A stretch of 64,000 bases of DNA from Flexistipes sinusarabici DSM 4947 (GTDB lineage Bacteria; Chrysiogenota; Deferribacteres; Deferribacterales; Flexistipitaceae): contig NC_015672.1 of NCBI RefSeq assembly GCF_000218625.1, positions 2,269,451 to 2,333,450 on the forward strand. The letters run 5' to 3'. Of this stretch, positions 2,525 through 18,880 are shown one piece after another. Position 1 is the stretch's first letter. Each line of letters starts with the position of its first letter. Both the position numbers and the translations under genes were made by a program. A model generated the notes under the pieces. It was not told the DNA's origin and did not search any database. It was given only the letters and a program-made list of their open reading frames with translations.

Positions 2525-3170
2525 TATTTTTTCTTTTTCTCCTCGGTTTATCAGGCACTATAAATATCGTCTTGATATTACCGCTTCCGTAGCTTTCCGT
2601 TCTGACACCCTTGGTTTCCTTAAGTGCAAGATGTATCTCTTTTCTGATTATTGTCACCAATGAGGCCATTTTTTCCGTTTTACCGGTTTTTTTGACACGC
2701 TCTGCCAAATTTAAGGCTTTTTCTTTCAAATGCTTAACAACTCTGCTCCTGTAATTTTCCACATCGACAATAACCTGCAAATCGCTGTCTTCCTCAATAC
2801 CAAGCATTTTGTCCAACAGGTACTGCAACGCATTCAAAGTCTGAGCCATTTTACCTATAATCAGATTGGAATCTTCGGAAAAAATGTTAAGAATATATTC
2901 AGAGTGGTTATCTATTACCTCTATTCGGTAATCATCAAAGCCGCTCTTTTCAAGGATTTCAGAAAGAATGAGTTTAGCCTGTCTTTTGTAGTATTCCTTG
3001 TCATTAAAATATATTTTCACATGGTAATTCTTTTTCCCGAACCCCAAAAATCCTTTGTTGCCTTCTTCCAAAACATCATATTCAATATATTTTTTAGGAA
3101 CGTCATGTTCCATTATAAATTTATTTATTGCATCCTCAACTGAGGGAGCTTCTATCTCATAATACTTCAT
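2514..3170 (-). CDS. jag: Jag/KhpB RNA-binding protein (SpoIIIJ-associated)
   Basis: The protein has an N-terminal Jag domain (MKYYEIEAPSVEDAI), a central KH domain around residues 75-150 and a C-terminal R3H domain. Jag/KhpB binds RNA and is almost always encoded next to yidC. I chose the ATG at 3170, preceded by GAGGTGATT, over an in-frame ATG at 3191 inside the yidC stop region. The predicted length is 218 residues. It overlaps the YHS gene by 11 bp at its 3' end. Confidence 0.9.
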   Translation of the reverse strand: MKYYEIEAPSVEDAINKFIMEHDVPKKYIEYDVLEEGNKGFLGFGKKNYHVKIYFNDKEYYKRQAKLILSEILEKSGFDDYRIEVIDNHSEYILNIFSEDSNLIIGKMAQTLNALQYLLDKMLGIEEDSDLQVIVDVENYRSRVVKHLKEKALNLAERVKKTGKTEKMASLVTIIRKEIHLALKETKGVRTESYGSGNIKTIFIVPDKPRRKRKNNAV

Positions 3171-3180
3171 AATCACCTCG

Positions 3181-4731
3181 TCATTTAGCACTAACTTTTC
3201 TGTTAATAAAATACTGCTGAATTATAGTAAGCACATTATTGGTCAACCAGTAAATAACAAGTCCCGCCGGAAAGTTAAGGAATATAAATGTAAATACAAG
3301 TGGCAGGAACATAAAAATCTTCTGCTGCTTCGGATCGCCGCCTGTAGGAGTCATTTTTTGCTGCAGGAACATCGAAAGCCCCATCAAAATGGGTGTAATA
3401 AAATAAGGGTCTTTCTGCGAAAGGTCTGTAAGCCAGAAAATAAATGGCGAGCCTTTCAATTCAATAGATACAAGAAGAGTTCTGTAAAGGGCGATAAAAA
3501 TGGGTATCTGTATAACCATCGGCAGACAGCCGCCCATGGGATTGGCACCATGTTTCTTATAAAGATCCATCATGGCCGCATTCATTTTCTGAGGCTCACC
3601 TTTAAACTTCTCCCTGATCTTGGTCATTTCAGGCTGGAGAACCTGCATCTTCTTCATTGATGTCATACTTTTCTGGGTCAAGGGGTAAGTCAGAATCTTA
3701 ATTACGAAGGTAAGCATAATAATTGCAAGACCGTAATTTCCCATAAAACCATATGTAAAATTCAAAATTTTCAGCATCGGTACAGAAAGAAAAGAGAAAA
3801 TTCCGAATTGTATACTCTCTTCAAGCTCAAATTTATTGGAACTTAGCAAATCATATTCTTTGGGGCCGACAAAAACAGGGAACGTAGTAACACTCTTATC
3901 CAGAGGATTTACAATCACTTCCTTCGATCCTTTGACGACTGCCTTAGAGTCCCCTTTGGATTCGATTGCAGCTTTTGTGAGACCGCCGTTCATGGCGGAA
4001 AAAAGAAAATATTTCGAAGTGTAACCAAGCCATGAAGGGTTATCCACATTTATCGGTTCTTCAACATCCTCAGGATCTTCTTTTGTAACCTGTTTTCCGT
4101 TAAAAATAAGAGGGCCGCTAAACATATATTTGGAATCTTCAAAACCCTTGCCGAGACCGGGCCCGATAACTACACCCAGTGATGTCTGAATCGTCTGATC
4201 GCTGATATTGGAAATGGTAACCTTCAAATCAAAGAAATAGCTGTCTTTTTTTATAATGTAGGTTTTATTGATTACGATATCTTTGGTTTCACCAACAAAC
4301 TGCACTTCATATCTGTTGTTAAATTCTTTTAAAGTATGCTTATAGCCGGAGACAGATGCGCTTAGTACATTCAAATAATCCCCGTTTTCTGATTTAAAAA
4401 TTAAATCGGGAAACTCTTTGTCTTTATACTGAAGAATTGTTGCAGTATAAATATTGCCTGTGTCCGAATTGAAAGTAATTTTAAGATTGTTTGTCTTAAC
4501 ATTGAATGTTTTTACCTGAGTCTTCTCTTCTTCTTTTGTACTGTCCAGCTTCTTAACATCAATGCTTTCAGATGTCTGCTCAGCAGGCTCTTTTTGGGCT
4601 GATTCACTGCCGGTGGTTTCAGTTTGCGTCTGGTTATCCGTCTGTATAACGGGAGTCGGTGCGTAAAAATACTGAAATATCAGCAGTACCAGAATACTGA
4701 GACCGATTGCTAATACTGTTCTTTTATCCAT
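3181..4731 (-). CDS. yidC: Membrane protein insertase YidC
   Basis: This is a 516-residue Gram-negative-type YidC. It has an N-terminal membrane helix (MDKRTVLAIGLSILVLLIF), a Ser/Glu/Thr-rich linker, a large periplasmic beta domain (about residues 75-310) and the conserved C-terminal core of five helices, including NPMGGCLPM and a final LTNNVLTIIQQYF. It inserts inner-membrane proteins alone or with Sec. It lies in the classic rpmH-rnpA-yidD-yidC-jag order. The large periplasmic domain indicates a diderm cell. Confidence 0.97.
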   Translation of the reverse strand: MDKRTVLAIGLSILVLLIFQYFYAPTPVIQTDNQTQTETTGSESAQKEPAEQTSESIDVKKLDSTKEEEKTQVKTFNVKTNNLKITFNSDTGNIYTATILQYKDKEFPDLIFKSENGDYLNVLSASVSGYKHTLKEFNNRYEVQFVGETKDIVINKTYIIKKDSYFFDLKVTISNISDQTIQTSLGVVIGPGLGKGFEDSKYMFSGPLIFNGKQVTKEDPEDVEEPINVDNPSWLGYTSKYFLFSAMNGGLTKAAIESKGDSKAVVKGSKEVIVNPLDKSVTTFPVFVGPKEYDLLSSNKFELEESIQFGIFSFLSVPMLKILNFTYGFMGNYGLAIIMLTFVIKILTYPLTQKSMTSMKKMQVLQPEMTKIREKFKGEPQKMNAAMMDLYKKHGANPMGGCLPMVIQIPIFIALYRTLLVSIELKGSPFIFWLTDLSQKDPYFITPILMGLSMFLQQKMTPTGGDPKQQKIFMFLPLVFTFIFLNFPAGLVIYWLTNNVLTIIQQYFINRKVSAK

Positions 4732-4753
4732 AAAACTCCTTCCTCCAGGTTAA

Positions 4754-4993
4754 TCATTTAACAGGATCAAATCCGCCTTTGCTGTATGGGTGGCACCTCA
4801 GGATTCTCCACAAGGATAAGATCACGCCTTTAAATATGCCCTTTTTAACAATTGCTTCTTTAGCATAAGCCGAGCAGGTGGGGTAAAATCTGCAATTCCT
4901 TCCTAAAAAAGGGGATAATAATTTTTGATATAACGATATTGATTTAAGCAAAAACTTTTTTACAGACGTTATGAAAATCTTTTTCAAGCTCAT
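4754..4993 (-). CDS. yidD: Membrane protein insertion efficiency factor YidD
   Basis: This 79-residue protein carries the family signature RNCRFYPTCSAYAKEAI and a following RCHPYSKGGFDPV. YidD is a small amphipathic protein at the inner membrane that aids YidC-dependent insertion. Its start overlaps the end of rnpA by 50 bp in another frame, a common arrangement in this cluster. It is slightly longer at the N-terminus than the minimal family domain. Confidence 0.95.
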   Translation of the reverse strand: MSLKKIFITSVKKFLLKSISLYQKLLSPFLGRNCRFYPTCSAYAKEAIVKKGIFKGVILSLWRILRCHPYSKGGFDPVK

Positions 4994-5282
4994 TATAATT
5001 CACCCTTACTGCTCCGGCCAAAGCAACTACTACAACGTTAGTATCTTCAGGTAATACAGATTTGTTTGTGCGATAAATCTCCCTTAAACGGCGCTTAATT
5101 TTGTTTCGAACTACGGCTTTTTTACTCACTTTTTTGCTGACAACTACACCGAATTTCCTTGTATCGCCGGAAACAGAAAACATTAACAAGTATTTCCCTT
5201 TGTATTTGGTTCCATTCTGAAAAACAAATTTAAAATCCGAAGCTTTCAGCAGCCTCTCATTTTTGGGTAATCGCTCATCCAT
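4944..5282 (-). CDS. rnpA: Ribonuclease P protein component
   Basis: This 112-residue basic protein has the RNase P protein signature RNKIKRRLREIYR (around residues 59-71). With the RNA subunit, which is not in this window, it removes 5' leaders from pre-tRNAs. The start lies 3 bp after the rpmH stop, and the end overlaps yidD. Confidence 0.95.
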   Translation of the reverse strand: MDERLPKNERLLKASDFKFVFQNGTKYKGKYLLMFSVSGDTRKFGVVVSKKVSKKAVVRNKIKRRLREIYRTNKSVLPEDTNVVVVALAGAVRVNYNELEKDFHNVCKKVFA

Positions 5283-5285
5283 TCA

Positions 5286-5429
5286 TCAAATTGCCAGACG
5301 TTTGCGCCCCTTTGCCCTTCTTCTGCTCAATACCTGCTTGCCGCCGCGGGTTTTCATACGGGCACGAAAGCCCTGTTTACGCTTCTTCTTGATATTCGTC
5401 GGTTTTTTCATTGTACGAATCTGAGACAT
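5286..5429 (-). CDS. rpmH: 50S ribosomal protein L34
   Basis: This 47-residue ORF encodes [18 protein letters not shown] followed by [16 protein letters not shown] and a basic C-terminus, the L34 pattern. I chose the ATG at 5429 because GGAGGAATAG precedes it and the IRT residues align with the KRT start of other L34 proteins. An internal ATG at 5411 is less likely. It is the first gene of the minus-strand operon and sits directly under a consensus promoter. Confidence 0.94.
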
Positions 5430-5463
5430 CTATTCCTCCACTTCTCAATTTTTAAAGAGTGCG

Positions 5464-5492
5464 ATTATAGCCACGCCCTTCTTGTTTGTCAA
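5464..5492 (-). promoter_or_regulatory. Consensus sigma-70 promoter for rpmH-rnpA-yidD-yidC-jag
   Basis: On the minus strand, TTGACA (5487-5492) and TATAAT (5464-5469) are separated by exactly 17 bases. Both hexamers match the consensus perfectly. The -10 box lies 34 bp upstream of the rpmH start codon. Confidence 0.88.
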
Positions 5493-5618
5493 CATAATGA
5501 GGATAAATTTAACACAATTTTTATAAGCTTTTCAATCAAAAAGAAATATTGTTAAATAACATCCGGTTAATCGGCAAAAAAGCGGAAAGAATCTGCGCCC
5601 GTTTTTTGCTGTTAATAG

Positions 5619-5647
5619 TTGACATCCTGAGCAAAAATCTGTATACA
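5619..5647 (+). promoter_or_regulatory. Promoter of tRNA-Leu(CAA)
   Basis: TTGACA (5619-5624) and TATACA (5642-5647) are separated by 17 bases. The -10 box lies 19 bp before the first tRNA base. Confidence 0.8.
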
Positions 5648-5666
5648 CTCGGTTACTATCTGCTAT

Positions 5667-5750
5667 GCCGGAGTGGTGGAATTGGTAGACGCGCCGGACT
5701 CAAAATCCGGTGGGGTCAAACCCGTGCGAGTTCGATTCTCGCCTCCGGCA
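5667..5750 (+). tRNA. tRNA-Leu (anticodon CAA)
   Basis: The acceptor arms GCCGGAG and CTCCGGC pair fully. The anticodon loop CTCAAAA gives CAA, the D loop has GGTAGAC, a long variable arm is present as in class II tRNAs, and the T arm reads GTTCGATTC. CCA is not encoded. A leucine tRNA 3' end is a common integration site, and the next genes are accessory. Confidence 0.96.
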
Positions 5751-6216
5751 CTCTTTCTTACCAATAATTTACAAAATCCCTTGCTCTTTTTAATAAAACT
5801 CAAAAATCTTTCTGGATACATTTTTTGGATACATTTGAAAACGAAGATAATAACTCCTGTATTTCTAATCATACAATGACCTCAAATTGGCTTAAAATAA
5901 AGAATACAGCCAAACAGGCCTATATCGATTTGGAGAAATAATATGATTCACTTTTAAAAATGTAAGCTTTACAGAAAGAACATTGCGCTATTTAAATAGC
6001 TAAAATTTGAGATGCCAAATAGCAGAAAAACAAATAATGTATTTTTTGTACACAGCTTTGCCATATTCTTAAATTTTAAAGATACAAAATCACAGAAAGT
6101 GATGAACATTATTAGAAACAAGCTTGACGGATAATACATTAAATGTAAAAATATGTTATGAAAAAGCCTAAAGACTGCATTCTCAGAACTTTAAAAAACT
6201 GCATATTATCTTAGAA
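5751..6216. other. AT-rich spacer between tRNA-Leu and the methyltransferase cassette
   Basis: No convincing gene is present. A tandem TGGATACATTT repeat occurs near 5812-5838. An open stretch ends at 5940 (reading ...WLKIKNTAKQAYIDLEK), too short to identify. It could be debris of an integrated element, but I found no integrase motif and no second copy of the tRNA 3' end. Confidence 0.4.
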
Positions 6217-7251
6217 ATGCAAAATTATGACGAAATTATAAAAAAAGAACTATATAATACAAAATATGGTAGATTATTTGTTGGTGACTCTGTTGAGTTG
6301 TCAAAGTCATATCTGTGCAGATACTATAAGAATAAATTCAATTTGATAATCACTTCACCTCCATTTCCACTAAACAACAAAAAGCGTTACGGAAATCTTC
6401 AGGGGAATGAATACTACGAATGGTTCATTAAATTAGCTCCAATATTCTCAAGCCTACTAACTGATGACGGCTCTCTTGTTATAGAGATTGGAAATGCATG
6501 GGAACAAGGTCGTCCAGTGCAATCATTGTTACACTTAGAATGTCTGTTAGGATTAGTTAAAAATCAGCATGCCGATTTACGTTTGATTCAGGAATTTGTT
6601 TGTTATAATCCATCACGCCTTCCTTCACCAGCCCAATGGGTAACAATCAATCGAATTAGGACTGTTGATAGTTATACACACGTTTGGTGGATTGCAAAAA
6701 GTGATTTTCCCAAGGCTGATAACACAAAAGTACTACGTCCTTATTCAAAAAAAATGCTACGTTTAATTGATAAAAAAAAGTTTAATGCCGGCAAACGACC
6801 TTCTGAACACAAAATTAGTCAAAAAGCTTTTGCAAAAAATAATGGAGGCAGTATTGCTCACAACCTTTTTGAATTAGAAACACTTGATCCATCTCGTGAG
6901 GTTCGCTTGCCTCATAACGTTTTAAGTTTTTCCAATTCTATATCAAATGACTACTATCTGAAAAGATGCAGAAGTGATAATATATCTCCACATCCAGCAC
7001 GCATGCATAGTGGACTTGTAAATTTTTTCATAGAATTTCTTACCAGAGAAAATGATCTTGTTCTCGATCCTTTTGCTGGTAGCAATACAACAGGCTATTG
7101 TGCAGAAAAGCTTAAAAGAAAATGGATATCCATTGAAGCTGATAGTGGATATGCTCATAACTCAATCATTCGTTTTGAAGAACCGAGTTTCGATTCAAAA
7201 TTAAAAGTTAGTACTCATTTAGGAGGTGATAGTGTTAGAAAACAAACTTAA
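6217..7251 (+). CDS. DNA methyltransferase, N4-cytosine type (beta class)
   Basis: This 344-residue protein has the catalytic motif SPPF at residues 47-50 (context LIITSPPF) and the SAM-binding motif DPFAGS at 284-289 near the C-terminus. That order defines the beta class. The Ser-Pro-Pro-aromatic form points to N4-cytosine methylation, whereas adenine enzymes normally have DPPY. An HPARM element precedes the SAM motif, as in related enzymes. No nuclease domain is fused. The stop lies 20 bp inside the next gene, so it is co-transcribed with the HerA and NurA genes. Its likely role is to mark host DNA. The ribosome site is weak, so the start is somewhat uncertain. Confidence 0.9.
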   Translation: MQNYDEIIKKELYNTKYGRLFVGDSVELSKSYLCRYYKNKFNLIITSPPFPLNNKKRYGNLQGNEYYEWFIKLAPIFSSLLTDDGSLVIEIGNAWEQGRPVQSLLHLECLLGLVKNQHADLRLIQEFVCYNPSRLPSPAQWVTINRIRTVDSYTHVWWIAKSDFPKADNTKVLRPYSKKMLRLIDKKKFNAGKRPSEHKISQKAFAKNNGGSIAHNLFELETLDPSREVRLPHNVLSFSNSISNDYYLKRCRSDNISPHPARMHSGLVNFFIEFLTRENDLVLDPFAGSNTTGYCAEKLKRKWISIEADSGYAHNSIIRFEEPSFDSKLKVSTHLGGDSVRKQT

Positions 7252-9283
7252 AGAAATTTTAAACGTAGATATTTTTAAAGAAGGTCGTAAAAACGAGCTT
7301 TTTGTTGGCCGACCATTTTATCTTGACTATGAAAGCGCACAAATACTTGTTTCAGATGCTTGGAAGCATAGAGTAAATGGAATTCCCCAAGGCGCGTTTC
7401 TTTTAGCATTTTATGACGGAGAAGATGGTGTAGAAGAAGCAGTCTTGCTTAGGGCACTAACACCGTCAAAGTTGCCTACAGATATGGATGTTGTTAGCTC
7501 CATGATCGAGTATTACAAAGAAGGGGCAGATATTAGTGGTCGCGCAGGGAGTAATAATAAGAGTAGATTAGATGACTTTACTAGGTATGAGTTTAGCTTT
7601 TCTGGCCTACAGTGTAGAGTTATTGGGTCGTTTTATAAGCTTAAAACAAATATTGTTCAGGATGGAGAAGAAATTGAAAATGAAACTCTTGAGTTTGGCG
7701 CAGATTTAGAGAATTTCTATTCTGCAAATAACTATAGTGTATATAAAGCAACCGGGCAAGTTTTGCGAAAAATAGTGAATCAACGCGATGGAAGTGTGAT
7801 GGCAGGCAATGAAAATGAATTTAAAATTGGTTCTGTTCGATATAGTTCTAGCCGACGTTTTCAGTCAATTTCAGAAGATGTGGAAGTGTACATAAGTCCT
7901 CAAGACTTCATTGGTAAACGAACTGCAGCTTTTGGTATGACACGAACTGGAAAGTCAAATACTATTAAAAAACTTATTGAAGCTACAGCTGAAATCTCAA
8001 ATAAAGCCACAGTAAAAAATCTTCCTGACATTCCAGAAGGTGTAAATCCTTTTAATAAAGAAGGAGCACCAATATACCCCATTGGTCAAATAATTTTTGA
8101 TATTAATGGGGAGTATGCCAACCCAAATTTGCAAGATGAAGGAACCGCTATATATGAACTATATAAAGACAAAGTATTTCGTTATAGTGTACTCGAAAAA
8201 CCAGGATTTAGAGTAATGAAGGTAAATTTTTATAAAGAAATTGAAAACGGCTTCGACCTTATTAGAGGATACTTAGAAAATAAGAATATTACTGGCGATT
8301 ATGTTAACAATTTTTCAGCAGTTGATTTGTCAATGCCCGAAGACTATTCAACAGATTTTTCATCTAAAAACCGAGTTGACAGAATAAGAGCAGCTTATCT
8401 TTGTTGCCTCTACAAAGCAGGCTTTAAAGAACCATCTGATTTTAAAGTCAAGTTTAAAGGAAATAAAGAAATTGATAAAGAAATAGGAAAAAATGGAATT
8501 GATCCAAGTAAATCTGTAACCCTTAAGGAAGCATGCCTTTGGTTCGAATGGGTATGGAAAAACTATGAAGAAGATTTTTTTAAAAATTATGAGAAAAATA
8601 AAGGTCATGAATGGGCGGATGACGACTTGAAAGCACTTCTTGTTTTTTTAACTGGATACAAGAAACCAAGCGAAAAAAATTCTGTAAGTGGTTACAAAAA
8701 AATTAGAGCAAAAGAGCTACATGACCTTCATACGAATATAGCTAAAGACTCTTTCGATGTTGAAATACCCAAGTTACTTAGAGCCGGGAACATTGTAATT
8801 GTAGATTTATCCCAAGGTTCTCCAACTGTACAATCCATTTTTTCTGAAAGAATATGCAGATCTATATTTACTGACTCAATGGGAAAATTTGTAGACAATA
8901 AACCGAATAACTTTATACAGTTTTATTTTGAAGAAGCTCATAACCTTTTTCCTAAAAAAGAAGATAAAGACCTTAGCCATATATATAACCGTTTAGCCAA
9001 AGAAGGAGCAAAACTTCATCTTGGTTTAATATATGCTACACAAGAAGTTAGTTCAATAAGTTCTAATATTCTCAAAAACACCCAGAACTGGTTTATTGCT
9101 CACTTGAATAATGAAGATGAACTAAAAGAGCTTAAAAAATATTACGATTTCTCTGATTTTATTGCCTCACTCATAAAGTTTAGTTCAGGCAATGACAAAG
9201 GGTTTGTCCGCATGAAAACTTACACAAATCCTTTTGTTGTTCCCGTTCAAGTAGACAGATTCTTGGCTAATAAGGAGCACTAA
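7232..9283 (+). CDS. herA: HerA-like hexameric DNA-translocating ATPase
   Basis: This roughly 683-residue protein belongs to the FtsK-HerA ATPases. The N-terminal 200 residues resemble the HAS-barrel region. Walker A is GMTRTGKS at about 235-242, and Walker B is FYFEEAHN at about 563-570, followed by a sensor-like IYATQE. An insert of about 250 residues lies between the Walker motifs. I chose GTG at 7232 because AGGAGG (7221-7226) is 5 bases upstream; an in-frame GTG at 7226 overlaps that site. HerA partners work as ring motors that feed DNA to the NurA nuclease. The tight spacing with the methyltransferase and NurA genes suggests one defence or DNA-processing machine. Confidence 0.92.
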   Translation: MLENKLKEILNVDIFKEGRKNELFVGRPFYLDYESAQILVSDAWKHRVNGIPQGAFLLAFYDGEDGVEEAVLLRALTPSKLPTDMDVVSSMIEYYKEGADISGRAGSNNKSRLDDFTRYEFSFSGLQCRVIGSFYKLKTNIVQDGEEIENETLEFGADLENFYSANNYSVYKATGQVLRKIVNQRDGSVMAGNENEFKIGSVRYSSSRRFQSISEDVEVYISPQDFIGKRTAAFGMTRTGKSNTIKKLIEATAEISNKATVKNLPDIPEGVNPFNKEGAPIYPIGQIIFDINGEYANPNLQDEGTAIYELYKDKVFRYSVLEKPGFRVMKVNFYKEIENGFDLIRGYLENKNITGDYVNNFSAVDLSMPEDYSTDFSSKNRVDRIRAAYLCCLYKAGFKEPSDFKVKFKGNKEIDKEIGKNGIDPSKSVTLKEACLWFEWVWKNYEEDFFKNYEKNKGHEWADDDLKALLVFLTGYKKPSEKNSVSGYKKIRAKELHDLHTNIAKDSFDVEIPKLLRAGNIVIVDLSQGSPTVQSIFSERICRSIFTDSMGKFVDNKPNNFIQFYFEEAHNLFPKKEDKDLSHIYNRLAKEGAKLHLGLIYATQEVSSISSNILKNTQNWFIAHLNNEDELKELKKYYDFSDFIASLIKFSSGNDKGFVRMKTYTNPFVVPVQVDRFLANKEH

Positions 9284-9287
9284 GAAT

Positions 9288-10646
9288 ATGGGTAGCACAA
9301 GCAGAAAACACAAGCCTAATGAATGGGCTGCAAAAATTAACCATACTCATATTATCAACGATTCTTTCATTAAAAATTTCATAAACAACTGCTCTCTTCC
9401 AATGAGTTCTTTTGATATCGATAAGAATGATACAGACTGCTTAAAAACATTAAACGCTAATATTCACAATCCAATAAAATATATTCTCGCTGTTGATGGA
9501 GGTTATACAACTGTAGAAGTAAAAAAGAATTTTCCAAGCGCTCAATTTGCATTCTTCCAATTTGGTGCAGTTCTATTTAATATCGAAGACCTAGATGCAT
9601 TATCAAAAAAGCCATTCATTTTCCCAGAGGATATGCAAAAACTACACAACCTTGAACGCTTTAAGCTTGCAATCCCAATTAAAAATATTGTTGTAAAAAA
9701 TGAATCATCTCTGAAGGACTCAATTCGCAAATCAGTTTATGACTTTTTTATGAAAGAACGCGATCAAACAAGTTTAATGGAGACTTTAAAGTGGTTTATT
9801 TTTGAAGAGTATTCCGATACACCAATTGATAGCTACTCATTAGCAAGTAACCCAAACTTAAATGTTGGTACAGGTGAATTTATATTAAAGCGAAATTCTA
9901 TAAACTCAGATTATACTTTTAATTCGCCTTCTGGGATAGTTTATTTAACTGATGTCTTTCGTCTTCATGAGGTCATAGATGAGGAGCACGGGGCTATTGG
10001 TATTTTAGGATACCTTACTAGACTTATAGAACAGCTTATTTTAGTTCATTTTATGAGAATAATTTTTAAGTGCCAAAAGCAGTGGTTAAAAGAATTCCTA
10101 TTCATAGCTGATGGCCCATTAAGCTTTTCAGGGCAAACAGCCAATATGCATAAACCCATGCGAAATCTGTGTAATTATTTTTTGCAATCAGAAAATCTTT
10201 TTTTGGTAGGTTTGGAAAAGAGTGGGCCTTTTGTTGAACATGCAAGAGAAATCGCGGATCCACCAAGTGGTAAGCCGGTTTTGGATAGAGGAAAATATAT
10301 TCTTCCAAGTAACAAGTATATTTATAAGTACATAATTCCAGGTGATTTCTCAACCATGCACTATGGCAAAACCTCATATTATAGTGGGAAAGTTATTTTT
10401 CACTCTTACGATGGTCAAATTTTAGTTTTAACAGTTCCGGTACCAGATAAAAATGCAATTATAAATCCAAAGAAGAAAGACTTTGCTAACCTTGATATTA
10501 TTCTTTTAAATATACAAAAGCTTAAATGTGATATGTATGATGATACAGTAGTGCCCGTTGCTTTGGCAAATAAACTTGTGTCACTAGCTAATCATCCAAG
10601 TAAAGTTCTATTGGAAAAATTTGCTACATCAACATATAACAAATAA
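9288..10646 (+). CDS. nurA: NurA-domain nuclease
   Basis: This 452-residue protein shows two NurA hallmarks: an N-terminal LAVDGGYTT with D70, and a distal FIADGPLSFSG with D275, both expected metal ligands of the RNase H-like nuclease core. A C-terminal segment with MHYGKTSYYSG and a conserved-looking histidine follows. NurA dimers dock on HerA rings and degrade DNA ends in archaea and some bacteria. The gene begins 4 bp after herA, with AAGGAG in the herA end. At 452 residues it is longer than typical archaeal NurA (roughly 300-400), with extra sequence between the two motifs. Family assignment is by motif only. Confidence 0.8.
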   Translation: MGSTSRKHKPNEWAAKINHTHIINDSFIKNFINNCSLPMSSFDIDKNDTDCLKTLNANIHNPIKYILAVDGGYTTVEVKKNFPSAQFAFFQFGAVLFNIEDLDALSKKPFIFPEDMQKLHNLERFKLAIPIKNIVVKNESSLKDSIRKSVYDFFMKERDQTSLMETLKWFIFEEYSDTPIDSYSLASNPNLNVGTGEFILKRNSINSDYTFNSPSGIVYLTDVFRLHEVIDEEHGAIGILGYLTRLIEQLILVHFMRIIFKCQKQWLKEFLFIADGPLSFSGQTANMHKPMRNLCNYFLQSENLFLVGLEKSGPFVEHAREIADPPSGKPVLDRGKYILPSNKYIYKYIIPGDFSTMHYGKTSYYSGKVIFHSYDGQILVLTVPVPDKNAIINPKKKDFANLDIILLNIQKLKCDMYDDTVVPVALANKLVSLANHPSKVLLEKFATSTYNK

Positions 10647-10797
10647 TAAGTTTTTCTGGTGTTTAAGGCGGACAAATTTATTACTCCAATCATTATAGTT
10701 TATTCTAATTTTATAAATAGGAGAAAATTAGTGACCTTAATAAAGAAGGAGGCCAATAAAAGAAATATTGAATTTCTATTTCATTTTACACAACTAA

Positions 10798-11282
10798 CGT
10801 AAACTTCCCCTTTAAGTGGACAGTTTTTAGTTAGAGAATTCTGTTTTTTCCATCATATACTCAGCTGGTGTTAAATCGTCAAGAGAATCATGCGGTCGCT
10901 TCTCGTTATAATCTATCATCCACCAGTAAGTCATTTCTCTTACTTCCTCTATACTGTTAAACAAATACAAATCTAATAACTCCGAACGATAAGTCCTGTT
11001 AAATCTTTCTATGTATGCATTTTGATTGGGCTTGCCTGGCTGAATATACTGTATTTTTATCCCTCTGGATTCAGCCCAGGATACAAGCTCATTACCTATA
11101 AACTCAGGGCCATTATCTACTCTGAAAACTTCTGGTAAACCCCGCTCAAGTGACAAAATTTCAAAAACTCTGACTAACCTCTTGCTGCTCAATGAAGTAT
11201 CTATTTCTATATGCAAGGCTTCTCTGTTAAAATCATCTATTACATTAAAAGTCCTGTACCTTTTACCACAGTATAGCGAATC
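10798..11282 (-). mobile_element. IS3-type element fragment (3' half)
   Basis: The fragment runs from a likely terminal repeat near 10798 (TAAACTTCCCCTTTAAGTGG) to an abrupt junction with the IS5-type end at 11282/11283. Only the 3' half of the transposase gene survives. The missing 5' half is not found on the far side of the IS5-type element, so a deletion or rearrangement followed the insertion. Confidence 0.75.
10827..11282 (-). pseudogene. IS3-family transposase (OrfB), 5'-truncated
   Basis: The reading frame is open from the junction at 11282 (DSLYCGKRYRTFNVIDDFN) through to the stop at 10827. It contains the second Asp (FRVDNGPEFIG) and the Glu (NAYIERFNRTYR) of the DDE integrase core and ends with the RPHDSLDDLTPAEYM motif typical of IS3 transposases. 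The first catalytic Asp and the whole N-terminus are gone, so it cannot be active. An internal ATG at 11216 gives a shorter ORF that should not be taken as a gene. Confidence 0.88.
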
Positions 11283-11456
11283 GAGACTTTTGAATCATCC
11301 TAATATTTTTAAATTTCATTAATTTTGCAGCTAAATTTGTTAACTACCACTTTTTTAAACAACATTATCAGCAAAAACAAAGGCATTTGTTTGTTTAAAT
11401 TGCCTCAAATTGTCCAAAATAGGTAATTTTGGACACACCTGTATGGTTAAATCTTG

Positions 11457-11614
11457 TCAAATCATTCTTAAAGCACCCTTTCTCAGATTATATGCCATAC
11501 AATGTATAGACAATTCCAGCCTAACTTTATCAATACCTATAAACCGGCTACGAGTATAACCAAAATGAAGCTTAATCAATCCAATTGCCTGCTCAACGAC
11601 ATAACGAACCTTGC
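11457..11614 (-). pseudogene. IS5-family transposase, C-terminal piece
   Basis: The translation VRYVVEQAIGLIKLHFGY continues to a stop at 11457 and matches the C-terminal end of IS5-type transposases, including the catalytic Glu in VEQ. It joins in frame to the piece ending at 13239 once the IS1380 insertion and one CTTGC duplication are removed. Confidence 0.88.
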
Positions 11615-13233
11615 CTTTAAGATTGCATTAGGAGTTGCAAGCCACCTTTAAGATGTTGTAGATTAAGGTTTTAAGAAAACAAAAACCACAACCAAAAAGG
11701 TGACTTACAATGAGCAAACTAAACTACAAATTAGAAAGAAGCAATGATAAAATTACCCCATTTGGTGGAATATCTTTGTTAATCCCACTGTTAGATAAGA
11801 TGGGCATCCGAGATTTCCTTGATAAAGAACTTGATCATCCAGGCTCTAACAGAGGCAAACCGCCATCTTCTAAAATAATTCCTGTTATTCTATCGATGAT
11901 ATGCGGTGGCAGGAGTTTCAGTGATATCGACAAACTTTCTTTTGATAAGGTTTTAAGCTATATCAGCGGTATTGAAGATATCCCGGATAGTTCCAGCATC
12001 AGTAGGTATTTTTCAAAAACAGAAAGCATGTTGGATGAAGTAGCAGTTAATAAAACAATCAGCAAACTGGGCAGTCTCAACTATAAAATAGTGAAAGATG
12101 CTTTAAAAAGAGAAAATTTATTTTCAGTTACTCTGGATCAGGACGCCACTTATGCAAAGGTGTATAAAAGGGATGCCAAGTATTGTTATAAGAAATTTAA
12201 AGCATACAGTTCTATGACGTGTTTTATAGGAGAGAGCGGTTATTGTATAGACGAGGAATTTCGGGAAGGCAATGTAAGTGCCCAGGTTGGCATACTTGAA
12301 CAGCTTCAGAGAGTCCATAAATATCTTGAATCTTGTGGTATAGAAGTATCCAATGTTCGTAATGATTCTGCCGGTTACCAATCTAAAGTATTGAATTACT
12401 GTTTTGATAACGATTTAACGTTTTTTATAGGAGGTGACCTTGATAGTTCAGTTCGTAAAGGAATAAATCATATACCATCTGATTCATGGAAAAGATATAG
12501 AAATAGGTATGGAGATGAAAGCGATAATGAGGAAATAGCAGAGTTTATTCACTGTATGGAAAACACTAAGGAGAGTTTCCGTATAATAGTTGTTCGTAAG
12601 AAAATTGAGTCAGACAACCCCACAGTTCCGGAGCTTCTTGGTGATAAATATGAATATCGTGTTATTGCAACTAATTCAAAACTGGATGCAGAAAAGGTGG
12701 TACATTTTTATAATTTGCGCGGTGTTTGTGAATACAATATAAAAGAAGCAAAGTATGGTTTTAATTTAAAAAGCTTTCCTTCGGGTAATCTTGCGGGTAA
12801 CGGCTTATGGTTTAAGACAGGAATACTGGCATATAATCTGATTATGTACCTCAAACGAATCATAATGGGAGGTGTCTATAAAAATAAAGAGATGGGTAGT
12901 ATACGTTATCAGGTCATATCTATAGCGGGGAAACTTGTGTCCCACGGCGGTAATAAACTGAAGTTGTGCTGCAGTGTGGATATGTTCAAAAAAATGGAAC
13001 AGTGGAGGACAGAATGTTTAACGTTGTGACCTTTTTTCTTTACTTATGTTAACTTTGTGGACAATTCAGGCAATAGGCAGTATTGCTGTGTCTAAAAACG
13101 GTGTAAATGGAGAAAATTTATGCTTTAGTAAAGTATGAATGAAGTAATATTTGGAAAATCTTTTCTTGTATTTTAAAAACAACAGGAAAAATATCAAAAT
13201 CGGAGTTTGTTATTTTCTAATGCAAAATTAAAG
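11615..13233 (+). mobile_element. IS1380-type insertion sequence, copy B (complete)
   Basis: The element is 1619 bp. The left end is CTTTAAGATTGCATTAG; the right end, read inward, is CTTTAATTTTGCATTAG. A 5-bp direct repeat, CTTGC, flanks it at 11610-11614 and 13234-13238, a clean target duplication. It sits inside the IS5-type transposase gene and splits it. It has the same length as copy C and opposite orientation. Confidence 0.95.
11710..13029 (+). CDS. IS1380-family transposase
   Basis: This 439-residue DDE transposase has the first Asp in VTLDQDAT, the second in VRNDSAGYQ and the Glu in EYNIKEAKYGF, all typical of the IS1380 family. The N-terminal ITPFGGISLL also fits. It starts at ATG with AGGTGACTTACA upstream. 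The predicted protein is identical to that of copy C and, where visible, copy A. The frame is intact, so it may be active. Confidence 0.93.
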   Translation: MSKLNYKLERSNDKITPFGGISLLIPLLDKMGIRDFLDKELDHPGSNRGKPPSSKIIPVILSMICGGRSFSDIDKLSFDKVLSYISGIEDIPDSSSISRYFSKTESMLDEVAVNKTISKLGSLNYKIVKDALKRENLFSVTLDQDATYAKVYKRDAKYCYKKFKAYSSMTCFIGESGYCIDEEFREGNVSAQVGILEQLQRVHKYLESCGIEVSNVRNDSAGYQSKVLNYCFDNDLTFFIGGDLDSSVRKGINHIPSDSWKRYRNRYGDESDNEEIAEFIHCMENTKESFRIIVVRKKIESDNPTVPELLGDKYEYRVIATNSKLDAEKVVHFYNLRGVCEYNIKEAKYGFNLKSFPSGNLAGNGLWFKTGILAYNLIMYLKRIIMGGVYKNKEMGSIRYQVISIAGKLVSHGGNKLKLCCSVDMFKKMEQWRTECLTL

Positions 13234-14130
13234 CTTGCTTACTGCCTTGTTATGAAATTTCTGAAATCCTGTAAGTGGCTTATTCCGCGCTGCCTTATAC
13301 ATTATCATATCTGCATAGGTTCCTGATATGTCTTTGCGGTTAGATTCACTGCTGTAGCCTTTATCTGCATATATTGCCGTTCCCTTAGGCAAATTAAGCT
13401 TTTGTAATAAAGGTGCCAAATTCCGCACCTCACTCTCTCTGGCACTCTTTACCATTTCTCCCAATATATAACCGTCCGAATTTACACAGAAAAATTGTTT
13501 GTAGCCATAATACGCTCTATTACCCTTCTTTAACCAACTCGCATCAGTGTCCTTCGAATAACTTATGTTGCTTTCATTATTCCCTCCGGAACCACCACAG
13601 GAACTATCATTGTCATCATCTCCTTCATGCCGATCTTCTGCAATATCATTTACTACTTTACGGGGACGGCACGAGGACTCTACCAATGTCGCATCTATTA
13701 TCGCTTCCTTCCTGCTTTTCACTATTAAATTTAATTCCGATAACTGCCTGTTTATCTCTGAAAATAACTCGTCAAATATCTCCAATTCAAGTAATCTGCT
13801 CCGAAACCTGCTGATGGTACTGTGATCCGGAACTTCTCCGGATACACTTACTCCTACAAATCTTATTACTGACAACCGATCCTTTAAGGCAAATTCAGCC
13901 TGAGGGTCACTCAGCTTTTCCCACGACTGTACTAAAAGTATTTTAAACAAAAGTAACGGGGAATAAGCTCTGCTGCCAGATGTGTTCTTAGTCCATCTGT
14001 ATTTCTTATCAAGGATTGATTTTACTTTCTTCCAGTCTATAAGTGAATTTATCTTATCAAGATAAGTCGAATCATTAGCTTTAAAGTCTAACATTGAATC
14101 TAATACTGTGGGTTCTATGTACTTTTCCAT
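13234..14130 (-). pseudogene. IS5-family transposase, N-terminal piece
   Basis: The piece begins at ATG 14130 (MEKYIEPTVLDSMLDF) with AAAAGGAGTTGTT just upstream; a longer frame upstream is not needed. It carries the first two catalytic Asp residues (AIIDATLVES and IYADKGYSS) and the HSTISRFRSRL motif. It is cut at 13239 by IS1380 copy B, and the C-terminal 50 residues lie at 11457-11614. A low-complexity DDDNDSS/GGSGGN stretch lies mid-protein. Confidence 0.9.
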
Positions 14131-14261
14131 AACAACTCCTTTTGTCTTTAATAAATAATACATATTATCACATAATATCATAATAGTAAAGATAAAATAT
14201 ATTAACTTCAAATGTTTTCATTTTTTCTTGTGCAAAGGTTTCAAATATACCTTTTTCAGGG

Positions 14262-15230
14262 TTAACTATAGTATTCTGCCGGCACCAATGGTAAATCCGA
14301 CCTTATTCTTTCTAAGATATATTCAGCAGCAAACTCGCCGGATTCCATTGCTTTGCCTATCCCTTCACCGGTAAAAGGATAGGTTGTACCGATTGTTTCA
14401 CCTATACATATATATCTGCTACTTTTATTATTTAATAAATGTCCTGTTTTTAACCCGCATCTTAAAACCGCACCTTTAAGTTTTGTTTCGCCTGTTTTAG
14501 CCGCAACAATCTTTCCGGCCTCAGTGAATCCTTTCAAAAACTCATCATGAACCTTTTTGAGGTTGTTTACGCCTTTTTTGCCGTAAAAAGCGCAGCAGCC
14601 GGTATTATACAAACCGCTGCCCAATGGAAAAATCCAGGCATATCCGGTAATAATGGAGCGCTCGTATGATACAAACATCTTATCTGTTATATAATCAGAC
14701 TGGATATATTTCCTTACACCGACAGCTTCCGGTTTGCAGTTTATTTTATCCGAAACGCTTGGCTTTAACAGATTAATGTCCGTACCGGTGGCAATGATAC
14801 CGAAATTTGAAGTAAATGACTCTCCTTCAGCAGAATGACATACAAAACAATCATTCCCCTCTTCAACTCTGCTAATCTTTTTGGGTAAAAACTTTACACC
14901 TTTTCCCGTTGCATGTCTTAAAAGAATATTATCAAAAATTTCTCTTTTTATGGTGAAATACTCGCCGGGAATAACGACTTTTGTGCCGAATGAGCTGTAA
15001 AAAAAGGTTTCATCTATATAATTGGCGTTCTTTTCGACCTCATCATACACTCCACACCTTTTTAAACATTTTATGGAATCACTAAGCAGACCGTCACCAC
15101 ACACTTTTTCTCGGGGGAAATCTTTTTTATCAAAAATCAATACACTTAGCCCGGCTTCAGACAATTTACAGGCCGAAATACTCCCGGCCGGACCGGCACC
15201 TATTATAATAACATCCCATCTTTTGTTCAT
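14262..15230 (-). CDS. FAD-dependent oxidoreductase of the geranylgeranyl reductase family, probably 3'-truncated
   Basis: This 322-residue protein has the dinucleotide-binding motif VIIIGAGPAGSISA at residues 7-20, the PREKVCGDG motif around 40-48 and a second FAD motif, ICIGETIGTTYPFTGEG, near 280. These are typical of geranylgeranyl/digeranylglycerophospholipid reductase-like flavoproteins. Related proteins usually extend about 40-80 residues further. The stop lies only 20 bp from the IS5-type end, so the native C-terminus was probably lost. The FAD core remains, so residual function is possible. Confidence 0.8.
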   Translation of the reverse strand: MNKRWDVIIIGAGPAGSISACKLSEAGLSVLIFDKKDFPREKVCGDGLLSDSIKCLKRCGVYDEVEKNANYIDETFFYSSFGTKVVIPGEYFTIKREIFDNILLRHATGKGVKFLPKKISRVEEGNDCFVCHSAEGESFTSNFGIIATGTDINLLKPSVSDKINCKPEAVGVRKYIQSDYITDKMFVSYERSIITGYAWIFPLGSGLYNTGCCAFYGKKGVNNLKKVHDEFLKGFTEAGKIVAAKTGETKLKGAVLRCGLKTGHLLNNKSSRYICIGETIGTTYPFTGEGIGKAMESGEFAAEYILERIRSDLPLVPAEYYS

Positions 15231-15342
15231 ACAAAATCCTGGTATTTCTTTTTAAAATACTCACCACTGCCACAGTGCTAAAATAACGGAAAAATACGTT
15301 TGCCTTGCCAAATATACAATTATTATTTTATTTTATACAACT

Positions 15343-16503
15343 ATGATAAGAATAATCAACTTAATCCTTGCAGTGACATTTATTTTCATTCAGATGATTT
15401 CCATTAATACCTTTTTGTATGCTGAGAACACACCTAAAAATATAATCCTTATGATCGGAGACGGAATGGGAAGCTCTCACATTAAAGCTGCCAAGCTCGC
15501 AAAAAGCGGCAAAGACGGAAAGCTATTTATGCAGAAGCTGGAAGTGCAAGGCTATATCAGAACACTTTCTGCGAATGGAGAAATCACTGATTCTGCAGCT
15601 GCAGCTACAGCTATGGCAACTGGCACAAAAACAAATAACGAAATTATAGGAAAAGATCACGATTACAATAATTTAAAGAATATATTCGAATACGCCGAGA
15701 AATACGGTAAATCAACGGGCATTGTGACCACTGTTCAGCTGACTCATGCCACTCCTGCGGCATTCGCAACCCATGTACGAAACAGATATAAGATGGAAGA
15801 AATAGCTGTGCAGATTATAAATAAAAATATTGAAGTGCTTTTTGGAGGCGGAGAAAATTATTTTTTACCTGAAAATCAAAATGGTTGTTTTGCCGGTGAA
15901 TGAAAACGGGATGACAGCATGAATTTGATAAGCAAAGCAGTTAAGAACGGCTACATTTATGTTTGCACTAAGCAGGAACTTAAAAATCTTGATACCGGTA
16001 TCACAAATCGCGTATTAGGCTTGTTCGGTGCGGAAGAGATAAAAAGACCAATTAAACCAAATTTGGCATTGTTAACAAAGAAAGCTGTTGAAATACTTTC
16101 AGACGACCCGGATGGTTTTTTCTTAATGGTGGAAGCCGGACAGATTGATTGGGCAAGCCACGAAAATAATGCAGCTAATATGCTGAACAGTATGCTGCTA
16201 TTCGATAAGGCTGTTAAAACAGCTTATCAGTTATCTCAGACATCAGAAACTCTTCTCATTGTAACATCGGATCATCAAACGGGAAAATTTAAAATCACTC
16301 CGGATAGGCAATCTCTTTTCGCAGACGGACCATTTTATATGCCTGACGGCACGAAATTTTTTATTCAGTGGAATAGCAACGAACATACTGCTGATAAAGT
16401 AAAAATATTTGCTTCCGGCGTTAATGCTGAAATGTTCAATGGAACACACGAAAACACTTTTATTTTTGATGTAATGTACCGCTCATTAAAAATGAAAAAT
16501 TAG
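15343..16503 (+). pseudogene. phoA: Alkaline phosphatase (PhoA-type) with in-frame TGA
   Basis: The frame encodes a signal peptide (to about residue 27), IILMIGDGMGSSH (metal site) and ITDSAAAATAMATGT, the catalytic serine region. It then meets TGA at 15901-15903 after NGCFAGE. The same frame continues as KRDDSMNLISKAV to a stop at 16503, with MVEAGQIDWASHENN and VTSDHQTG, the distal metal-binding motifs. Both halves are needed for activity. A single base change from CGA, GGA or AGA would create this TGA. Selenocysteine or readthrough is possible but I see no supporting stem-loop. A possible restart at ATG 15919 would lack the catalytic serine. Confidence 0.8.
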
Positions 16504-16536
16504 CTTAACATTTTGATAATGGGATTTTATAGACTT

Positions 16537-16665
16537 TAGACTTTTGAATAATGTGTTTTTATAAATTTTACCACCCCTTAATCCCCTCTTAACTCTTTGA
16601 TAGAAGGGGTGATAAAGCTTATCCCCTAAATTAGGGGAGGGTGGGTGGTGTACCTATTCAAAGCT
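16537..16665. repeat. 129-bp MITE-like repeat, copy 1
   Basis: It begins TAGACTTTTGAATAA and ends CTATTCAAAGCT, giving imperfect inverted ends around TTTGAATA/TATTCAAA. Inside are the CCACCCCTTAATCCCCTC arm, its partner GGGGAGGGTGGGTGG, and the palindrome CCCCTAAATTAGGGG. Copy 2 at 63250-63378 has the same length and order. No coding capacity is seen. Confidence 0.75.
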
Positions 16666-17261: not shown

Positions 17262-18880
17262 CTTTAATTTTGCATTAGAAAATAACAAACTCCGATTTTG
17301 ATATTTTTCCTGTTGTTTTTAAAATACAAGAAAAGATTTTCCAAATATTACTTCATTCATACTTTACTAAAGCATAAATTTTCTCCATTTACACCGTTTT
17401 TAGACACAGCAATACTGCCTATTGCCTGAATTGTCCACAAAGTTAACATAAGTAAAGAAAAAAGGTCACAACGTTAAACATTCTGTCCTCCACTGTTCCA
17501 TTTTTTTGAACATATCCACACTGCAGCACAACTTCAGTTTATTACCGCCGTGGGACACAAGTTTCCCCGCTATAGATATGACCTGATAACGTATACTACC
17601 CATCTCTTTATTTTTATAGACACCTCCCATTATGATTCGTTTGAGGTACATAATCAGATTATATGCCAGTATTCCTGTCTTAAACCATAAGCCGTTACCC
17701 GCAAGATTACCCGAAGGAAAGCTTTTTAAATTAAAACCATACTTTGCTTCTTTTATATTGTATTCACAAACACCGCGCAAATTATAAAAATGTACCACCT
17801 TTTCTGCATCCAGTTTTGAATTAGTTGCAATAACACGATATTCATATTTATCACCAAGAAGCTCCGGAACTGTGGGGTTGTCTGACTCAATTTTCTTACG
17901 AACAACTATTATACGGAAACTCTCCTTAGTGTTTTCCATACAGTGAATAAACTCTGCTATTTCCTCATTATCGCTTTCATCTCCATACCTATTTCTATAT
18001 CTTTTCCATGAATCAGATGGTATATGATTTATTCCTTTACGAACTGAACTATCAAGGTCACCTCCTATAAAAAACGTTAAATCGTTATCAAAACAGTAAT
18101 TCAATACTTTAGATTGGTAACCGGCAGAATCATTACGAACATTGGATACTTCTATACCACAAGATTCAAGATATTTATGGACTCTCTGAAGCTGTTCAAG
18201 TATGCCAACCTGGGCACTTACATTGCCTTCCCGAAATTCCTCGTCTATACAATAACCGCTCTCTCCTATAAAACACGTCATAGAACTGTATGCTTTAAAT
18301 TTCTTATAACAATACTTGGCATCCCTTTTATACACCTTTGCATAAGTGGCGTCCTGATCCAGAGTAACTGAAAATAAATTTTCTCTTTTTAAAGCATCTT
18401 TCACTATTTTATAGTTGAGACTGCCCAGTTTGCTGATTGTTTTATTAACTGCTACTTCATCCAACATGCTTTCTGTTTTTGAAAAATACCTACTGATGCT
18501 GGAACTATCCGGGATATCTTCAATACCGCTGATATAGCTTAAAACCTTATCAAAAGAAAGTTTGTCGATATCACTGAAACTCCTGCCACCGCATATCATC
18601 GATAGAATAACAGGAATTATTTTAGAAGATGGCGGTTTGCCTCTGTTAGAGCCTGGATGATCAAGTTCTTTATCAAGGAAATCTCGGATGCCCATCTTAT
18701 CTAACAGTGGGATTAACAAAGATATTCCACCAAATGGGGTAATTTTATCATTGCTTCTTTCTAATTTGTAGTTTAGTTTGCTCATTGTAAGTCACCTTTT
18801 TGGTTGTGGTTTTTGTTTTCTTAAAACCTTAATCTACAACATCTTAAAGGTGGCTTGCAACTCCTAATGCAATCTTAAAG
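17262..18880 (-). mobile_element. IS1380-type insertion sequence, copy C (complete)
   Basis: The element is 1619 bp with the same ends as copy B. The 5-bp flanks are CATCA (17257-17261) and TATTT (18881-18885), which do not match. Loss of the target duplication suggests that this copy took part in recombination with another copy or in an adjacent deletion. It runs in the same direction as copy A. Confidence 0.95.
17466..18785 (-). CDS. IS1380-family transposase
   Basis: This 439-residue protein is identical to the transposase of copy B, with all three DDE regions intact (LDQDAT, RNDSAGYQ, NIKEAKYGF). The absence of any difference implies very recent spread or gene conversion. Confidence 0.93.
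   Translation of the reverse strand: MSKLNYKLERSNDKITPFGGISLLIPLLDKMGIRDFLDKELDHPGSNRGKPPSSKIIPVILSMICGGRSFSDIDKLSFDKVLSYISGIEDIPDSSSISRYFSKTESMLDEVAVNKTISKLGSLNYKIVKDALKRENLFSVTLDQDATYAKVYKRDAKYCYKKFKAYSSMTCFIGESGYCIDEEFREGNVSAQVGILEQLQRVHKYLESCGIEVSNVRNDSAGYQSKVLNYCFDNDLTFFIGGDLDSSVRKGINHIPSDSWKRYRNRYGDESDNEEIAEFIHCMENTKESFRIIVVRKKIESDNPTVPELLGDKYEYRVIATNSKLDAEKVVHFYNLRGVCEYNIKEAKYGFNLKSFPSGNLAGNGLWFKTGILAYNLIMYLKRIIMGGVYKNKEMGSIRYQVISIAGKLVSHGGNKLKLCCSVDMFKKMEQWRTECLTL

Follow-up and report, generated by a model that had tools for sequence, protein, structure and literature searches.

A methyltransferase-HerA-NurA cassette in Flexistipes sinusarabici as a probable methylation-gated, Tdp-like defence system

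A compact cassette encoding a DNA methyltransferase (MTase), a HerA-family ATPase and a NurA-family nuclease was found in Flexistipes sinusarabici DSM 4947 (phylum Deferribacterota; same-order relatives include Deferribacter), within a 64,000-nucleotide stretch of the closed 2,526,590-bp genome (hereinafter referred to as the window). Our confidence that the three genes form a defence module is high. The cassette is probably a horizontally moving, methylation-gated restriction-modification (R-M)-like system in which HerA-NurA would degrade unmethylated DNA, resembling the phosphorothioate-based TdpABC defence of thermophiles (An et al. 2025, Nat Chem Biol 21:1160; as cited in PMC13251355). An R-M system with a DNA pump-shredder was considered most likely because the trio travels together, its MTases are interchangeable and its site is a defence hotspot. 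The original prediction of a candidate defence system was thus strengthened by linkage across phyla, a non-core distribution (3/51 genomes) and the hotspot seen in congeners. The features of the locus are as follows.

5667..5751, + strand: tRNA-Leu (CAA), at which the accessory island is anchored (ARAGORN, Rfam)
5776..16542, no strand: accessory island; missing from two congeneric genomes or replaced there (blastn against G016 and G015)
6217..7251, + strand: PvuII-like DNA methyltransferase, putative modification subunit, 344 aa (Pfam PF01555, M.PvuII, PADLOC MTase_II)
7221..7229, + strand: Shine-Dalgarno sequence AGGAGGTGA for HerA, within the 3' end of the MTase gene (sequence)
7232..9283, + strand: HerA-family, predicted hexameric DNA translocase, 683 aa from GTG (Pfam DUF87, PDB TdpA, homologue starts)
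9288..10646, + strand: NurA-family nuclease, 452 aa, predicted restriction nuclease (Pfam NurA, TdpB fold match, invariant residues)
9840..9944, + strand: NurA region, about residues 185-219, site of a zinc-ribbon-like insert in relatives (alignment, motif scan)

The three + strand ORFs (6217-7251, 7226-9283 and 9288-10646) are tightly packed as an operon, and their catalytic motifs are intact. MTase and HerA overlap by 20 bp when HerA starts at 7232, and HerA and NurA are 4 bp apart, in agreement with the arrangement first described (overlapping or 4 bp apart). The HerA frame is open from 7226, but GTG 7232 is the more likely start because it is preceded by a strong Shine-Dalgarno sequence (AGGAGGTGA, 7221-7229) and yields the N-terminus MLENKLKEI, which agrees with those of homologues. 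Promoter and terminator scans gave results no better than shuffles, and a close DNA match was not found in E. coli.

The MTase matched Pfam N6_N4_Mtase (PF01555; E = 9.2e-28) and the PADLOC model MTase_II (2.1e-87), and contained the motifs TSPPF and DPFAGS. Its closest solved relative was M.PvuII (1boo; E = 5.1e-71, full-length match), an N4-cytosine methyltransferase. A product of m4C type is expected from the sequence, and both the PF01555 match and the end-to-end M.PvuII relative fit the m4C-type enzyme with SPPF originally proposed. HerA matched Pfam DUF87/HerA (9.3e-11), and its Walker A (GMTRTGKSN) and Walker B (FYFEEAHN) motifs were invariant or nearly so among 25 homologues, as anticipated for a HerA-like ATPase with intact Walker motifs. 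Its best PDB relative was TdpA (8.5e-20 with the single sequence and 2.3e-20 with a profile), a match at the level of homologue, not orthologue, and concentrated in the ATPase part; the HerA proteins of SIR2-HerA and DUF4297-HerA were less close in the PDB comparison. Segment 301-495 was the least conserved portion of HerA in most comparisons, and the AF2 model of the protein was poor (pLDDT 59.9).

NurA passed the curated cut-off of Pfam NurA marginally (7.3e-5). Sequence searches of the PDB with NurA (single sequence and profile) gave no real match, and the fold search alone succeeded: the best match of the AF2 model (pLDDT 78.7) was TdpB (8wfd_G; E = 2.7e-7, TM 0.45/0.54), followed by the NurA structures of Deinococcus, Thermococcus, Thermotoga and Sulfolobus. 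Five polar residues (D70, D222, E248, D275 and H318) were invariant among 26 homologues, consistent with a putative metal-dependent RNase H-like active site. The predicted NurA-like nuclease was therefore upheld by Pfam and fold, with five invariant polar residues in place of the two Asp sites initially noted; the HerA-NurA pair also stood, its closest known machine being TdpAB rather than the archaeal repair HerA-NurA. A four-Cys zinc-ribbon-like insert in NurA (about residues 185-219) was present in many relatives from distant lineages (L009, L010, L012, L015-L017, L020, L033-L036, L038 and L039), and in the clade of the window it was decayed, with the cysteines lost.

A genome scan of GTDB with NurA yielded nine relatives, in Gammaproteobacteria, Bacillota, Planctomycetota and Dojkabacteria. 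HerA lay directly 5' of NurA in all nine; a PvuII-type MTase was upstream on the same strand in seven, divergent in one and absent from one (L011), where a D12-class methyltransferase lies 65 bp downstream in convergent orientation. To avoid bias, sampled genomes were searched by the NurA profile only. Matches were found in 5/400 genomes of one Bacillota class, 4/369 of the class of Thiothrix, 1/392 of Planctomycetota and 4/287 of the phylum of the Dojkabacteria genome, each tally including its own seed genome. All nine new neighbourhoods examined had an adjacent HerA and a DNA methyltransferase in the cluster; a tenth, cut by a contig end, was left out.

When the ORFs of 25 distinct loci from Bacteria and a single archaeon were compared all-against-all, HerA and NurA were each present in 25/25, the PF01555 MTase group in 16 and the D12 group in 8. 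A DNA methyltransferase was adjacent in 23 loci, because L011 falls in both methyltransferase groups. Antisense shadow ORFs aside, no further gene was common to more than two of the 25 loci, and in most relatives the spacing of the cassette genes lay between -20 and +20 bp. The co-occurrence of the trio, proposed as a check in the original prediction, was thus found across phyla and also in the NurA-only searches. The two loci lacking an MTase were cyanobacterial plasmids, and a third, near-identical plasmid also lacked it. On these plasmids (L015-L017) neither a PF01555 nor a D12 methyltransferase was found, and HerA-NurA is preceded by a gene for an 82-aa XRE-type HTH protein; the host chromosome may supply the mark.

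Plasmid and phage searches with HerA and with NurA as query returned the identical five plasmids and two phages, and scans of IMG/VR viral contigs with NurA and HerA profiles did not find relatives. In the prophage-like Vibrio phage 10N.286.55.C4_PE001 (L020), HerA-NurA lies with a convergent D12 methyltransferase between integrase and regulatory region, a phage-borne form of the system. In the Deferribacter plasmid pDF308 (L018, 4126-7924), an IS200/IS605 element with TnpB splits the HerA gene of a related cassette, and this copy is therefore probably inactive.

The family is sparsely distributed in its own phylum. The family NurA profile matched 3/51 phylum genomes and neither of two congeners, and Pfam NurA matched 2/51. 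Together with MTase linkage in 23/25 loci, this differs from the ubiquitous core pair with an occasional MTase that had been named as the contrary outcome. Homology to the congeners ends 21-24 bp beyond the 3' end of tRNA-Leu (CAA), at 5772 for G016 and 5775 for G015, at a site adjoining rpmH/rnpA; it restarts at 16543 in G015 (blastn), the one congener by which the right edge of the island (16542) is set. At this site, G016 carries a type I R-M system (HsdRMS), SoFic and a Schlafen-type gene, and G015 carries an AbiE pair, with the terminal part of a type IIG gene beyond it. Three related genomes therefore hold three different defence systems at one site, and the tRNA-Leu (CAA) site is a defence hotspot of the genus. 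No stretch of 12 bp or more from the tRNA 3' end was found to recur downstream as a direct repeat, and a site-specific integrated element is therefore not claimed.

Elsewhere, cassette neighbours included a type III R-M system and a GmrSD/HEC-05 gene (L009), an AbiTii gene (L016) and an OLD/Gabija-like ATPase (L033), and the Vibrio prophage carrying a relative has Shedu and Gabija parts marked by its annotators. Proximity to defence genes, a further check suggested beforehand, was accordingly seen at the congener hotspot and in relatives beside type III R-M, GmrSD-like and AbiT genes.

Besides the three cassette genes, the island ORFs comprised transposases, an FAD enzyme and, at the right edge, an apparently broken alkaline phosphatase gene split over adjacent ORFs (15343-15903 and 15919-16503). 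The same DDE_Tnp_1_4 transposase ORF occurs twice in opposite orientation with an identical 439-aa translation (11710-13029, + strand; 17466-18785, - strand); the two copies bracket about 4.4 kb with a four-tRNA cluster and could, with the enclosed DNA, form a composite element. In Paenibacillus ottowii (L010), a gene next to the cassette (3005-6403) has a 1132-aa product with a match to Pfam RdRP (RNA-dependent RNA polymerase; 2.4e-17), which is unusual in a bacterium.

Methyltransferases of different families stood beside HerA-NurA. PvuII-like enzymes accompany the clade of the window, D12-class N6-adenine enzymes accompany two other lineages, and other PF01555 enzymes, with a motif order suggesting the permuted type, accompany further lineages. 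The position of the MTase also varied (first, last, divergent or convergent). In the HerA and NurA trees, whose deep branches are long and whose joins are unsure, the D12-linked loci fell in separate lineages, and the D12-linked L011 lay inside the PvuII-linked clade; the D12 neighbour of its HerA-NurA is the sole D12 gene of that genome. A DNA methyltransferase as the constant partner was thus retained from the original prediction, whereas a specifically m4C partner was not, the families being swapped. Within the PvuII-linked set, divergence was correlated between HerA and NurA (r = 0.91) and between HerA and MTase (r = 0.74; permutation p about 0.0001-0.0002), which shows co-inheritance, not contact. 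In the HerA tree the window grouped with Gammaproteobacteria and not with the second family member from its order; the cassette therefore moves between lineages.

In the mechanism favoured here, the MTase would mark host DNA at a specific sequence (m4C being expected for the window copy), HerA would act as a hexameric dsDNA pump that, like TdpAB, bears a dimer of the NurA nuclease, and this HerA6-NurA2 assembly would translocate along incoming DNA without the mark and degrade it. We infer the ring-plus-dimer assembly and its ATP-driven degradation from TdpAB and HerA-NurA, and methylation would protect host DNA, judging from the constant MTase linkage and the Tdp parallel. In Tdp, phosphorothioation reportedly blocks TdpAB. 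Restriction of unmethylated DNA by HerA-NurA is considered probable, to much the same degree as the complete scheme. The cyanobacterial plasmid loci with HerA-NurA but no MTase, and the DNA-donation role of the Thermus HerA-NurA-methylase operon (PMC5365140), speak against the scheme. The most speculative element is how the mark is read: we lean slightly towards sensing by HerA-NurA itself over recruitment by the MTase, because the methyltransferases are mutually unrelated. Contact with the target is perhaps made by the HerA insert (about 301-495) or by the zinc-ribbon insert of NurA.

In the main rival explanation, the MTase is the sensor, binding unmethylated target sites and recruiting or licensing HerA-NurA, like HsdM/HsdS or PglX in type I R-M and BREX. 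Co-inheritance of MTase and HerA in the PvuII-linked clade (r = 0.74), with genes that often overlap or abut, speaks for it, whereas one conserved docking surface is harder to imagine when similar HerA-NurA pairs are served by unrelated MTase families and the gene order varies, and a separate specificity subunit was not found across the 25 loci. We regard it as possible and the less likely version; it is still defence and a sub-variant of the favoured scheme, so that the likelihoods of the two overlap.

Far less probable is an abortive or NTP/NAD-depleting HerA complex of the SIR2-HerA/DUF4297-HerA type, outside R-M and merely silenced by the methyltransferase. Other HerA-effector pairs are indeed anti-phage complexes (PMC12948488); here, however, the MTase is a constant partner, while SIR2-HerA and DUF4297-HerA are described without one, and the HerA is nearer to TdpA than to theirs. 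Slightly less probable again is a DNA-transfer module like the ICETh1 operon of Thermus (type IIG enzyme, NurA, TdtA and methylase), with a motor exporting DNA to recipient cells. The same three protein classes, the tight operon and insertion at a tRNA gene are shared with it (PMC5365140; PMC7767461), but the island contains no integrase or transfer gene, none recurs among relatives, and the type IIG enzyme needed by the Thermus operon is absent from the island. Least probable is a HerA-NurA serving double-strand-break repair, whose methyltransferase neighbour would be an orphan regulator or a matter of chance: DNA end processing is the setting in which canonical HerA-NurA is studied (PMC12977600), yet the pair is missing from the congeners and most of the phylum, linkage to differing MTases in 23/25 loci is not chance, and the nearest solved relatives are TdpAB.

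More broadly, HerA-NurA might be a modification-agnostic restriction engine, independently paired with different self-marks (phosphorothioate, and N4-methylcytosine or N6-methyladenine made by unrelated MTases), and so a distinct class of translocating R-M without a sequence-specific endonuclease; this is put forward tentatively, as somewhat less than an even prospect. If the methylation-gated scheme is true, base methylation can gate a HerA-NurA pump-and-shredder, some 'orphan' PvuII-like and D12 methyltransferases would be accounted for, and MTase + DUF87 + NurA would serve as a compact annotation rule for a defence system. It would also raise the question of how one conserved motor-nuclease reads the marks of unrelated methyltransferases. 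PADLOC 2.0.0 appears not to name the system, because none of its models matches the window NurA. In the open literature searched, we came across neither a restriction system built of a methyltransferase, HerA and NurA nor any phage, restriction or methylation assay of the family; subscription papers, such as the FtsK-HerA survey of Iyer et al. (2004), which may mention such neighbourhoods, and the Tdp paper, lay outside this scope.

Among known systems, TdpABC likewise combines a HerA ring (TdpA), a NurA nuclease (TdpB) and a DNA-modifying partner, but the modifier in the cassette is a base methyltransferase instead of the phosphorothioation enzyme TdpC, and the cassette NurA is longer than TdpB. 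A TdpC gene is absent from the island and none recurs among relatives; the cassette cannot be named TdpABC because this defining enzyme is missing. The tdtA operon of Thermus thermophilus ICETh1, a HerA-NurA-methylase operon acting in DNA donation (PMC5365140), is similar by protein class, with co-transcribed NurA, HerA/FtsK-family ATPase and PF01555 methylase in a tRNA-inserted element; it differs in its demonstrated DNA donation and in its type IIG enzyme and integrase, both absent from the island described here. The general hallmark of R-M, a methyltransferase linked to a nuclease, was found in 23/25 loci. The cassette MTase is a full-length relative of that of the PvuII type II system, but R.PvuII and the controller gene are lacking, and HerA-NurA, the sole constant MTase partner, fills the restriction slot; the cassette is not a type II system because it has no gene for a site-specific restriction endonuclease. 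Hallmark genes of type I, BREX and DISARM systems (HsdR/HsdS, PglZ/BrxC, DrmABC) were not found in the island. A housekeeping HerA-NurA was rejected as an identity, broad conservation in the clade not being seen (3/51 by the family profile and 2/51 by Pfam NurA). SIR2-HerA and DUF4297-HerA also join a HerA hexamer to an effector enzyme in anti-phage defence, whereas the cassette effector is NurA, with an RNase H-like fold, and the operon includes a methyltransferase. The archaeal and Deinococcus HerA-NurA share the same two protein families and likely the same ring-plus-dimer architecture, but they are studied in end processing without a methyltransferase, whereas the cassette family is accessory and mobile.
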